64,000 nucleotides of DNA from NCBI GenBank assembly GCA_018394295.1, contig CP074573.1, positions 1,743,156 to 1,807,155 of the forward strand. The letters run 5' to 3'. The DNA is from Mycoplasmatota bacterium. Lineage in GTDB: Bacteria > Bacillota_I > Bacilli_A > Haloplasmatales > Haloplasmataceae. The translations under genes were made by a program, and so were the position numbers. Shown piece after piece: positions 15,487-62,862 of this stretch. The stretch's first letter is position 1; each line of letters begins with the position of its first letter. The notes under the pieces are model-generated. The model was not told the DNA's origin. It saw only the letters and a program-made list of their open reading frames with translations, and made no database searches.

Positions 15487-16548
15487 TTAGATTTCATCCA
15501 TTAATGCTTTTACATCTTTATAATCAACTCGATAATCATACACTTTCGATAAATATGAAAATGCTCGCTTTTTATGTCCTTTTAAGAATAAGGCTTTCCC
15601 TAAAGCATATTTGTATTCTAATTGATCTTCATCCATCTCTTCTTTATTTACTGGCAATTCTTTATACCAACTGATTGCTTTATCATAATCATTAAGTCCT
15701 AAGTAACAATCTCCTAGCACTTTATATTTAGAAAATCTAATGTCATCATCTTCAGAATAGATTTTTTCAATTGCAGCTATTCCTTCTTGATATTTACCTA
15801 ATTCAGTAGATGCGCATCCTTCAATAAAATACATTACTTCAAGTGGACTATTTTCTTCTTTATAGGCTTCAACATAATATAATGCTTCTTCATATTTTTC
15901 TAGTCTAAAGGCAGTAAACATCATCATAATTAATGCTTTATCACTTTTTGGTTTTATTGCCAAACACTTTTTTAACAATTTATAGGCTTTATTTAAACGA
16001 TTCTTTTGAAATAATGTAATAGAATGATTCAAACTATATACATAAGAATGAAGTTTTGATTTTAATAAATAAAGCAAAAGCAAACAAATATTAAACGCAA
16101 TTAAAATATAACTTAGAAAAGATCTTTGAATGACTCCAAAAATTCCTAAACCTAAAAGGGTTATTAATAATAAATACAAAAGATAATTTCGTTCACGACT
16201 TCCTAAATATAGTAATAATGCCTGTTCATCTTCTGTTGGAATTCTTTCAAAATCTGTTTCAGGATTAATTATTCTTTCTTCTTTCTCAATCTCTTCAAGT
16301 TTATCTTTTTCTAATTTATTCAAGTTTTTATCAATTTTTTTTCTATCTGATTTTTTAGTTTTTTTCTTTTTAGTAAACCATTTCGTATAATGTATTCCAT
16401 TTCCCCCTAAAGTAAATCTAACTCCGGAATTATTTTTACTTACACGAAATCCTTTAACTCCAGTACTAATTCCAATTCCACCATTTTTACTAAAGTTAAT
16501 TCTTGTATTCTTCCCAATTCGAAAACTTTTTCGAAAACTAATTCCCAT
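15487..16548 (-). CDS. DUF4236 domain membrane protein with C-terminal TPR repeats
   Basis: A 353-residue protein. Residues 1-60 (MGISFRKSFRIGKNTRIN, NGGIGISTGVKGFRVS, GVRFTLGGNGIHY) match DUF4236, a short glycine-rich beta unit found in many bacterial surface or stress proteins. A charged linker (60-110) and two membrane helices (about 118-160) follow. The rest is helical repeats with the TPR pattern (KAYKLLKKCLAIKPKSDKAL, EEALYYVEAYKEEN, DYDKAISWYKELP), suggesting a protein-interaction role. GAGGTGAG precedes the ATG. Function unknown. Confidence 0.75.
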   Translation of the reverse strand: MGISFRKSFRIGKNTRINFSKNGGIGISTGVKGFRVSKNNSGVRFTLGGNGIHYTKWFTKKKKTKKSDRKKIDKNLNKLEKDKLEEIEKEERIINPETDFERIPTEDEQALLLYLGSRERNYLLYLLLITLLGLGIFGVIQRSFLSYILIAFNICLLLLYLLKSKLHSYVYSLNHSITLFQKNRLNKAYKLLKKCLAIKPKSDKALIMMMFTAFRLEKYEEALYYVEAYKEENSPLEVMYFIEGCASTELGKYQEGIAAIEKIYSEDDDIRFSKYKVLGDCYLGLNDYDKAISWYKELPVNKEEMDEDQLEYKYALGKALFLKGHKKRAFSYLSKVYDYRVDYKDVKALMDEI

Positions 16549-26450: not shown

Positions 26451-26539
26451 TCTATTCACTTCCAATCTACAAAGAACATTTGTTCGTATTTTTATTATAC
26501 CACCTTAATTTATAAATAACAATTTCTTATATAAAAAAA

Positions 26540-54949: not shown

Positions 54950-55051
54950 TTGTAACACTTTCCTGTTCTTAGAATCAATTATTATTGTAACAGGAACATC
55001 ATTAACCAGTGAAACATCACTCATTGCATCAAAAATTTCTGTTTCAACTTC
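54950..55051 (-). pseudogene. dtd: Relic of D-aminoacyl-tRNA deacylase (C-terminal part)
   Basis: Thirty-odd codons encode EVETEIFDAMSDVSLVNDVP and VTIIIDSKNRK, matching the conserved Dtd end (VETGIFGAxMxVSLVNDGPVTIIIDSK). No start or N-terminal half is present. One of four such relics in this window, all on the minus strand. Confidence 0.7.
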
Positions 55052-55220: not shown

Positions 55221-55460
55221 TCAATAGTGAAACAGAGTACCAAAGTATATGCTAATCAGAGTCTCAACAGTATATTCATCAGTATATGCTATCCATAAAT
55301 CATTACCTTTTCTTAAATCTCTCTTAATATTAATCAATGATAAATCCAGTTCCTCATCAAAATTACCAGTTTCATCTTTAATGTTTTCACTTCTTATCTT
55401 CTCATTAAAATGATCATATAATTTTTTAGTATAATCTGGTTTTGATGCAGTTGAAAAACC
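55221..55460 (-). pseudogene. dtd: Diverged relic of a D-aminoacyl-tRNA deacylase-like gene
   Basis: Eighty open codons without a start: GFSTASKPDYTKKLYDHFNE, then KIRSENIKDETGNFDEELDL and SLINI. The spacing follows the Dtd pattern (SFTxAAKPDxAxELYxxF ... ENIKVETGIFGAxMxVSLVN) but most key residues are changed, then an unrelated tail ends in TGA. Tentative. Confidence 0.45.
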
Positions 55461-55566
55461 TGGTCAATTACCTTTGCAGGTGTCAGAAAAATGAGTGAAG
55501 TATGTTTCTTTTGGGGACAAGAATGCAACCAAATTTATAATATATAAATTATAAGTAATATATTTT

Positions 55567-58504: not shown

Positions 58505-59119
58505 GAAGAATTAATTCAATTATTTTACAGGCTACCAGTAAAACTTAGAAAGATCTAATCTAAAAAGTAAAAATAGGATCATACTGAAATTATATTTAAA
58601 AAATCTTGATAAATTCCACTCAGCGTTTCTAAAATCCTCTTATACTAATTGGATCAATAATAACATTTTTCTGCAACTTAACGAACTATAAATGAATTAT
58701 TATATAGTAAATAACCATTGTTTCATTTAAATATATGCAAATAAATTTTAATAGGACCTTGGATATATCTCTAAGGTCCATAATTTATTTTTGAATAAAA
58801 GTACTATTAAAATCAATAGTATTAATATTTGATTTAGATATTCTTTTCCTTACAGATATACCATTTATTTTATAATATAAGATTAACGTATAGATTTGAT
58901 TATGACCTAGATAAACACATGTAACTTTTAAGTCTTTCGATATTAACAATTTTAATTAACTTTTCCTAAACTCTTAATCTAGGGAATTTTTCATCTCATT
59001 ATACCTTTTATTTAGTGCAGTATTTCTAAGTTTTATTATATATAATACTTAAATATTAACATATAAGTGTTATAATGTTAATATATATCTAGTAAATTTA
59101 TAAAAAGGGAGGGATATCT
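58505..59119. other. Intergenic region after the cupin gene
   Basis: About 600 AT-rich bases, containing a terminator-like hairpin (listed separately) and the ribosome site gggaggg of a decayed lipoprotein gene. No intact gene. Confidence 0.4.
58754..58779 (+). terminator. Probable terminator distal to the cupin gene
   Basis: ggacctt / aaggtcc stem with a 12-nt loop and a T-rich tail, 250 bases after the stop. Confidence 0.5.
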
Positions 59120-59278
59120 AATAAAAAAATCATTAAGCTTTTTCTAATATTTATGATTTTGTTTGTAGTCACATTTTTATCTGCATGAGAACCTGATGGA
59201 CTTTTTGACAATTGCAACGTCTTAAGAAAAATTGATTCATGCGGTAAAAATGGTGGAACCAAATATGGGGATGATTAA
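59120..59278 (+). pseudogene. Relic of a small lipoprotein gene; UGA at the lipobox cysteine
   Basis: After gggaggg the frame reads NKKIIKLFLIFMILFVVTFL, SA, TGA, EPDGLFDNCNVLRKI ... DSCGKNGGTKYGDD and stop. The hydrophobic core followed by LSA-x-EPD is a perfect lipoprotein signal, except that TGA replaces the cysteine codon and no ATG is in frame. Confidence 0.6.
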
Positions 59279-59545
59279 ATTTTATTTGACATAATAGTAG
59301 ACTTTGTATAGAATTTGACTTTATTATGGCAATAATATTTTCTTAATTTGAAAAAGCTAGAATTTGGACTTGTGTAATATCAATATAAGTTGAAAAATTA
59401 TTGGGATTATAAGAAATAATTCTATTTAGTTTTTATGGAGAACTTTTTTTATAGTAATGTTAGTATAGAAGCATGGATATGATGATAGTATTATTATGTA
59501 TACCAGAGTTTTATAAATTAAATTAATAATAAGGAGGTAAGAACT

Positions 59546-61021
59546 ATTAAACTATTTAAAAATCTAGTAGTTGTATTTTTAATAATTATGGTAGGCATTA
59601 TTGTTAATGGATGTACATCTACTTATAACGTGGTTTATCATGGTAATAATAATACAGGGGGGGATCCTGTTGTAGATAATACTGACTATATGGATGGTGA
59701 AACAGTAATCATCATGGATAATGATGGAAATTTAGAGAAAACTGGATTTGTATTTTCGGGATGGAATTCACAAGCTGATGGTCAAGGAACAGATTATCCT
59801 GTAGGAAGTACTTTTACCATTCACTCTAATACTGTCTTATATGCTAAATGGATTGAAGAAGATCAACAAATATCACGATATGCATCTTTAAAACAAATTA
59901 ATGTAAAACCTGTCATATTAGAAATATATTCATCAAATCCATCCTATGATGTTGGTTATTGGCAAGATGTAAAGCTTGATGTATTGTCATTAACTTTTGG
60001 TGAAATAGGTTTTGAGGCACCTGCCTATGTTTTTGATGATTATTATGATTTAGAACAAGGTACTTATTATACAATTGATGATGTAGAATATGTAAACCTT
60101 CCTGTAGGTGAATACACTGAATTTGATATTGACAGTGATGCAAATTACTTTAAAAAAATGATATCAACCACAAATACATTGTCATTTAAGTCTTGTGTTT
60201 CCATTCATAACTTTGCTAAACCAACCTATGATGACCCTATTATACAAAGCCCATTTGCACGAACAGGTGGGTCAATACTAGAAGTTATTTCTCATGAAGA
60301 TATAGATGTACCAATGGATATTACTACATTAACAGTTGAATCCACAGGCTTAACGCTTTCTGCCGCAGGTTTTGCAGAATTCGATATTCAGTTTATTTTT
60401 GACATTACAATAGGTGAAATACCTGATGAAGAGCTATACACAGTAACATATGATGGGAACGGTACAAATGAAAATGTACCTACTGATAATACGAATTATT
60501 ATGGTGGAGCAACTGTAACAATAGAAGATCAAGGGAATATGATTTATGAAGATTATGTATTTAATGGTTGGAACACTGAACCTGATGGAAGTGGTACGGC
60601 TTATAATTCATTTGACCAATTTATGATTACTGAAGATACTATTTTTTATGCTCAATGGACAATGGTTACAGCACAAATATTTGCTAAAACTTTAAAACAC
60701 GCAGAGATTAGTGGTAGCAATTATGATTCCAATAATGTTACATATTTAAGTGAAAATTTAGAATATGGGATGATGCAATATCTTTATGTCAATTATGATG
60801 AACATCCTACCCTTTCGATTTCTGAAATTGTAAATGTAGTCATAGACCCTAGTGACACAGAAGCAATCATAATTTATAAAATGAATAACAATGAAATAGG
60901 TTATGAAGAAGTCTTTAATGTACCTAATACAACAAGTAATCAAGTTGCCATTTCCGTTGAAGTAATGGTTAATGATCAACTTATCACTGCATGCATGATT
61001 TATATTAGAATGTTACCATAG
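59546..61021 (+). CDS. Surface lipoprotein with two InlB B-repeat domains; AUU start
   Basis: A 491-residue lipoprotein. Starting at ATT, eight bases after AAGGAGG, gives a normal signal peptide (KLFKNLVVVFLIIMVGIIVNGC, cysteine 23). The first ATG leaves only eight residues before that cysteine, too few for export. Two Listeria-Bacteroides (Flg_new/InlB B) repeats flank a middle beta domain: YHGNNNTGG ... GFVFSGWNSQADGQGTDYPVG ... YAKW, and YDGNGTNENVP ... YVFNGWNTEPDGSGTAYNSF ... YAQW. Probably an adhesion or cell-surface interaction protein. Confidence 0.78.
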   Translation: MKLFKNLVVVFLIIMVGIIVNGCTSTYNVVYHGNNNTGGDPVVDNTDYMDGETVIIMDNDGNLEKTGFVFSGWNSQADGQGTDYPVGSTFTIHSNTVLYAKWIEEDQQISRYASLKQINVKPVILEIYSSNPSYDVGYWQDVKLDVLSLTFGEIGFEAPAYVFDDYYDLEQGTYYTIDDVEYVNLPVGEYTEFDIDSDANYFKKMISTTNTLSFKSCVSIHNFAKPTYDDPIIQSPFARTGGSILEVISHEDIDVPMDITTLTVESTGLTLSAAGFAEFDIQFIFDITIGEIPDEELYTVTYDGNGTNENVPTDNTNYYGGATVTIEDQGNMIYEDYVFNGWNTEPDGSGTAYNSFDQFMITEDTIFYAQWTMVTAQIFAKTLKHAEISGSNYDSNNVTYLSENLEYGMMQYLYVNYDEHPTLSISEIVNVVIDPSDTEAIIIYKMNNNEIGYEEVFNVPNTTSNQVAISVEVMVNDQLITACMIYIRMLP

Positions 61022-61073: not shown

Positions 61074-61114
61074 AGACTGTTGACAAATTGCCTTTTTGTC
61101 GACAGTCTTTTTTA
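61074..61114 (+). terminator. Terminator of the InlB-repeat lipoprotein gene
   Basis: agactgttgacaaa / tttgtcgacagtct, 14 bp with one wobble, followed by TTTTTT. Confidence 0.9.
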
Positions 61115-61309: not shown

Positions 61310-61432
61310 TTATCCTTTAAAAATTCCTGTTTCAACTTTAATACTTTCTTTTCTAAGTTTCTCAATAAAATCATCATCAAGACCTTTTGCATGTTCAAAT
61401 TTTGCAGATTCAATAAAGTTTGGACGGTTCCA
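61310..61432 (-). pseudogene. dtd: Relic of D-aminoacyl-tRNA deacylase (central part)
   Basis: Forty-one codons encode WNRPNFIESAKFEHAKGLDD, then DFIEKLRKESIKVETGIFKG and stop. This matches the Dtd core NRPSFxEAAxPExAxxLYxxFxEKLRxEGIKVETGIFG. It ends where the catalytic GxM / VSLVNDGPVT end should begin. About 110 bases before the next gene and on the opposite strand. Confidence 0.8.
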
Positions 61433-62663: not shown

Positions 62664-62862
62664 TTATCTATTTTGGAAATGGATTATAATTGTCACAGGT
62701 CCATCATTACTTAATGAAACATAGTTCCAAAAATACCTACTTCAACTTCAGTATTTTCTTTCTTAGTTTATCATTAAATTCACCATAAATTGCTTTTGCT
62801 TGTTCAGGTCTTGTTGATTCAATAAAATTTGGTCTATTTATTTTCTTGTATAAGCGAATAAA
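62664..62862 (-). pseudogene. dtd: Relic of D-aminoacyl-tRNA deacylase with two frameshifts
   Basis: Three reading frames in order spell a Dtd tail: FIRLYKKINRPNFIESTRPE and QAKAIYGEFNDKLRK, then TEVEVGIFGTM, then VSLSNDGPVTIIIHFQNR with a proper stop and terminator. The catalytic NDGPVT is kept, the N-terminal third is missing. It is the best preserved of four relics. Confidence 0.85.

Follow-up and report, generated by a model that had tools for sequence, protein, structure and literature searches.

The question that this locus raises is whether a surface lipoprotein gene is translated from an AUU codon, and what such a start would mean for a gene in these surroundings. The earlier note on this DNA named AUU as the likely start, and this agrees well with what we found in the window (the whole stretch of 64,000 nucleotides analysed). 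The frame is bounded by an in-frame stop at 59519-59521 and by the TAA at 61019-61021, and the gene and its immediate flanks contain the following:

59286 to 59314, plus strand: best sigma-70-like promoter match, TTGACA-17-TAGAAT, 11 of 12 matches; suggestive only
59531 to 59538, plus strand: Shine-Dalgarno (SD) sequence AAGGAGGT; SD matches of at least 8 precede 9 of the 589 standard-start frames with a match of at least 4 in the genome sample
59546 to 59548, plus strand: ATT, the inferred start codon, 8 nt from the SD
59546 to 59614, plus strand: signal peptide and lipobox from the lipobox pattern scan, Cys codon at 59612-59614
59546 to 61021, plus strand: lipoprotein gene, 491 codons and TAA, open throughout
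61074 to 61108, plus strand: intrinsic terminator-like stem of 14 pairs with a T run

ATT 59546 is well supported as the initiation site because a long SD, a common spacing and a textbook lipoprotein signal come together where no standard start is in reach. The AAGGAGG that had been pointed out eight bases before the ATT is present in AAGGAGGT, a sequence with a chance expectation of about 4.6e-6 per site under a first-order model of the window, and the gap of 8 nt from the end of AAGGAGG to the ATT is among the usual ones in a sample of 237 frames that have an SD match of at least 5 before a standard start (7 nt, n=69; 8 nt, n=48; 6 nt, n=43). A standard start upstream of the ATT is ruled out, as none occurs in frame after the stop at 59519-59521, and no ATG, GTG or TTG lies in frame between this stop and ATG 59588, which is 42 bases on and is the first standard start of the frame. 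We rejected ATG 59588 as the start, since it has no SD and stands just 8 residues ahead of the lipobox Cys, so that it leaves no usable signal, as the note had argued. Read from the ATT, the N-terminus is IKLFKNLVVVFLIIMVGIIVNGC, in which IKLFKNLVVVFLIIMVGIIVNG directly precedes Cys23 (59612); the expected signal peptide is thus in frame, with a positively charged n-region, a hydrophobic h-region and a lipobox with Cys in the pattern scan. The lipobox is VNGC, its Asn at -2 being a residue that the scan pattern permits by design. Overall, sigma-70-like sites in the region are no more frequent than by chance (27 found against 26.1 expected), and the fold of the leader (59500-59610) is not stronger than that of shuffled sequences (z 0.78). 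A 17-codon frame (59473-59526) ends right before the lipoprotein SD; translational coupling to it was considered and not adopted, no SD of its own being seen by eye.

How unusual such a start is in this genome, with a GC content of about 28%, was estimated from 40 stretches of 20 kb together with the window (864 kb, or 844 kb readable, because stretch L099 reads N). The comparison took in 694 non-overlapping frames, each 100 codons or longer. A standard start preceded by an SD match of at least 4 heads 589 of them (504 ATG, 54 TTG and 31 GTG), and matches of at least 8 precede 9 of the 432 standard-start frames with a match of at least 5. Near-cognate codons with an SD match of at least 5 and no standard start upstream in frame number 33. 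In 28 of them a standard start, not always with an SD, follows within 18 nt, and these were dropped. Of the other five, ATT 59546 and the ATA of a DUF2804 gene were kept, and three were set aside by eye, as was also the way in which an earlier, wider list (464 kb) was read: a RarA-like frame at 26495 of the window (minus strand), in which an ATG 45 nt further along directly precedes the family match; L091:12799, a frame of 117 codons that resembles an RHS protein tail, with no Pfam match; and L096:14998, a chance-like frame of 102 codons, likewise with no Pfam match.

Searches by other routes singled out the same site. The exact pattern AGGAGG-N4-9-ATTAAA occurs six times genome-wide, against 18 for a reversed control pattern; four of the six use an ATG start, one heads a frame of 74 codons that we judged to be chance, and only at 59546 does a long frame run from the ATT itself. 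Lipobox candidates in the 844 kb number 35, with a standard start and SD in 24 (22 ATG, 1 GTG and 1 TTG), a standard start with no SD by the scan rule in five, and no standard start in six; among these six a strong SD is found only at the 59546 gene, the other five being frames of 65-92 codons. The other genes of this genome with PF09479 repeats share the lipoprotein signal and the repeat domains with the 59546 gene, and in 8 of 10 the signal peptide is preceded by an in-frame ATG and, as judged by eye, SD-like stretches are present, whereas the 59546 gene has the ATT and an unmatched middle domain. One of the remaining two begins without a signal peptide. The other, L082:4248-4994 (minus strand; G000:C1 near 1658280, G000 being this genome), lacks an in-frame ATG ahead of the signal peptide, and its ATG after an SD-like stretch sits in another frame.

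Two further genes of the sample carry candidate near-cognate starts. The infC gene (L062:2035-2049, minus strand) probably starts with AUC, judging from an ATC located 7 nt after the GGAGG of GGAGGTG; its frame upstream of the SD holds one TTG and two ATG, and a second TTG further up. The DUF2804 gene (L043:15509-16534, minus strand) appears to start with AUA, at an ATA at 16534 behind AGGGAGGG (SD match 5). Read from there, the protein enters the family profile at position 4 with its residue 5 and follows it to the end; starting at the next standard codon, a TTG without SD 30 nt downstream, would cut into the domain.

The encoded protein consists of the lipoprotein signal, two PF09479 repeats and two stretches of unknown kind. 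The family match scores 72.8 bits in two stretches, compared to a curated cut-off of 27:

59624 to 59848, plus strand: Listeria-Bacteroides repeat 1 (PF09479), 42 bits
59867 to 60415, plus strand: middle domain, unmatched in 394 other genomes of the class and in the search of the genome contigs
60437 to 60655, plus strand: Listeria-Bacteroides repeat 2 (PF09479), 45.6 bits

An AlphaFold model made without an alignment was unusable (mean pLDDT 34.2). By sequence comparison the gene is accessory, found in this genome only among those searched: a whole-protein search of 59 relatives gave no ortholog, with matches in 13 that centred on the PF09479 repeats, and the genome contigs held no ortholog either. 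The C-terminal domain has one weak match among the 394 genomes (G389, E 3.4e-4). Comparison of the start codon in relatives found no ortholog, the same-genus genome G001 included, which keeps the neighbouring cupin gene (79%) with different genes after it. A weak match in genome G005 (L105) was dismissed, as was a DNA match of 30 bases (59387-59416 to C1:3078215) lying inside an rpoC-like coding stretch named by eye.

The surroundings of the gene bear signs of decay. The neighbouring relic that had been mentioned in the earlier note sits 0.4 kb upstream, as seen in the frame translation. In addition, an array of displaced 3' ends of dtd extends from 54966 through 64000 and onward to G000:C1:1812153, downstream of the intact dtd and on the same strand, and the lipoprotein gene lies between the third (61319-61417) and the fourth (55329-55475) of these ends, the marginal one apart (dtd fragment coordinates are in window numbering, carried past 64000):

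59104 to 59278, plus strand: small lipoprotein relic that has a signal peptide and an SD-like stretch but lacks a start codon, with TGA at the position of the lipobox Cys
G000:C1:1811725 to 1812153, minus strand: intact dtd (PF02580, D-aminoacyl-tRNA deacylase), just past the window, after a relA-like gene
65208 to 65246, minus strand: displaced dtd 3' end, marginal
64384 to 64562, minus strand: displaced dtd 3' end
62665 to 62839, minus strand: displaced dtd 3' end, decayed, 69% DNA identity
61319 to 61417, minus strand: displaced dtd 3' end, decayed, below the family cut-off
55329 to 55517, minus strand: displaced dtd 3' end (dtd part 55329-55475), preceded by an att-like right end
54966 to 55049, minus strand: displaced dtd 3' end, 84 bases

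Published systems indicate what an AUU behind such an SD could do. In the passages of PMC13009471 drawn on here, the AUU start of cvfC1 and the AUA starts of ccpN and infC in Staphylococcus aureus all have extended SDs, and non-canonical reporters reach about 10% of the AUG level in poor medium, with up to 30% for the ccpN reporter in rich medium. The cvfC1 and ccpN sites resemble the present one in the ATN codon, the extended SD, the suitable spacing and the low-GC Gram-positive host; in contrast, they are described there as conserved, mapped by Ribo-Ret and tested with reporters, while the 59546 lipoprotein is found in one genome and is known from sequence alone. As the extended-SD AUU and AUA sites of the cited passages work in S. 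aureus, weak translation is to be expected here as well if the gene is transcribed. PMC10158994 describes in vitro experiments in which raising IF3 brought the fraction of correct starts at AUU, decoded with the CAU anticodon, down to 31.1%. Excerpts of PMC5622118 give a single AUG to AUU change in 61,358 ancestral AUG starts of close genome groups, a count that may miss unannotated AUU starts. For infC, the relevant part of PMC5472188 describes an autoregulated near-cognate start, ATT in E. coli and ATC in Streptomyces; it has in common with the 59546 gene a near-cognate codon that is in principle subject to IF3 discrimination, but in infC the codon is part of the feedback on IF3 itself, and no such feedback is implied here. 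The GTC start of Streptomyces sigR, reported in the same part as IF3-repressed, is likewise a non-canonical start outside infC, differing from the present case in its codon and in belonging to an experimentally studied regulatory sigma factor.

Weak translation from the AUU is our best reading, and we lean, with modest confidence, towards ATT 59546 being a working but weak start of an accessory lipoprotein, likely a mutated standard start in the cargo of a decaying island at dtd. The near-complete SD AAGGAGGT would hold the 30S subunit and put the AUU in the P site with the initiator tRNA, where IF3 would reject most of the complexes, leaving lipidated protein at perhaps a tenth or less of the AUG level. 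In a decaying island inserted at dtd, cargo would lose expression at little cost, and the AUU most likely arose there when a standard start mutated. It is an AUU of a known kind, most likely weakly active. Against this reading speak the chance-level promoter match, the failure of the searches to turn up an ortholog that could show the ancestral codon, and the rarity of AUG to AUU switches. The earlier note had also offered that a single-base mutation has silenced the gene like its neighbour. Loss of the start is made likelier by the accessory location, with no ortholog, decayed insertion remnants and the relic 0.4 kb upstream, and this context tilts the meaning of the AUU towards a degraded start; the silencing itself is less convincing, as the full loss of translation is unlikely behind the strong SD if the gene is transcribed. 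The two are compatible, because a change of AUG to AUU behind a strong SD should lower translation and not abolish it.

A gene silenced, wholly or in effect, by the destruction of its start codon we regard as possible but somewhat unlikely. With the adjacent relic, which lacks a start and carries a stop at its lipobox Cys, and with the several decayed dtd ends and the absence of an ortholog in the searched genomes, a wholly dead gene is plausible, and the PF09479 lipoprotein at G000:C1:1658280 (minus strand), with its ATG in another frame, shows the same want of an in-frame ATG. The 491 codons without an in-frame stop argue in the other direction, limiting the neutral divergence since any silencing to less than about 4%, which does not exclude a recent loss, and so do an SD among the longest of the sample and the translation of AUU with an extended SD in S. 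aureus (from the cited passages of PMC13009471), which makes full silence unlikely in a transcribed gene. A start that selection maintains as a damper, coupled to IF3 together with infC (AUC) and DUF2804 (AUA), would account for the rarity of the 8-base SD match, for the extended SDs that mark functional AUU and AUA sites in those S. aureus passages, and for the two further near-cognate candidates of the genome; still, we think it unlikely, as conservation is not demonstrable for a gene found in one genome, the DUF2804 site has an SD match of only 5 bases, a strong SD would be equally natural in an AUG gene that was once well expressed, and it was the SD that first drew attention to the site. 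A sequence or assembly error, or a minority allele, with a standard start in the gene of the cell, is very improbable, since a single substitution outside a homopolymer is generally known as an uncommon assembly error.

Annotation that accepts only ATG, GTG and TTG easily overlooks AUU starts. If the AUU is weakly translated, as we favour, the surface protein would be set low by its start codon and would offer a natural test of SD compensation at about 28% GC; if the gene is dead, it would be a clean example of start loss early in the decay of cargo. Given the putative near-cognate starts of infC and DUF2804, a response of the lipoprotein to initiation-factor levels is possible. The wider idea that a few genes of the genome (infC with AUC, DUF2804 with AUA, the lipoprotein with AUU) are retained under near-cognate starts compensated by their SDs seems quite unlikely; were it true, scarcity of IF3 or a disturbance of initiation would raise the output of a surface lipoprotein, and the start codon of mobile cargo at dtd would keep the expression of this cargo down until it is selected.

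The dtd array is a more interesting by-product than the AUU start. It appears from the compared sequences that dtd is a repeated insertion target of elements bringing their own dtd 3' end, and a tRNA-proofreading gene that serves as such a target, with several genera showing arrays of its displaced 3' ends, would be of wider interest; no paper on dtd as an integration site was found in the literature searched. Genomes G003, G005 and G006 also have displaced dtd ends, and G004 weakly, while none were found in the same-genus G001 or in G002 and G007. DNA comparison gave eleven such ends on one contig of G005 and three on another (L129, L130 and L131). In the compared sequence, 7 of the 14 fragments have nt 227 as their first base, and 11 of 14 start within nt 224-229, in the codons of the SQFTL motif. 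As controls, recJ and apt had no extra copies in the same stretches, and relA gave a single match, about 40 bases long, in G005 and another in this genome, against 11 and 5 for dtd.

On the upstream side, 8 of the 10 G005 fragments shown have, by eye, a variant of TTxTCCCxTAA(n)AA before CACACTTCACC. The end pattern matched six places in four genomes; five coincide with displaced ends, and the sixth (G005, 13255) gave no dtd fragment. The sequence TGCATTCTTGTCCC is common to the site at 55517 of the window, G006 and G003, and an att-like end, TTGTCCCTTAA..AAACACACTTCACC, is common to displaced dtd ends across genera, three related genera having remnants of this sort with a shared end. In G006 (L132 and L133) a displaced end shares 99% identity with its intact counterpart, and the 7.4 kb between the intact dtd and the displaced end hold an AbiH gene, an RnlA-like gene and a large serine recombinase (L133:6966-8573, minus strand; 535 aa; PF00239, PF07508 and PF13408), which is a candidate for the enzyme of the dtd elements on account of its position beside dtd. 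Between dtd and the lipoprotein gene of this genome no recombinase was seen in the ORF lists, which were read by eye, part of the ORFs being Pfam-scanned. In G003 (L134 and L135) the order is different: the 5' part of dtd (nt 1-216; L134:6838-7053 and onward) is followed by a frame of 776 aa and then by an intact dtd, and the insertion seems here to have supplied a whole dtd.
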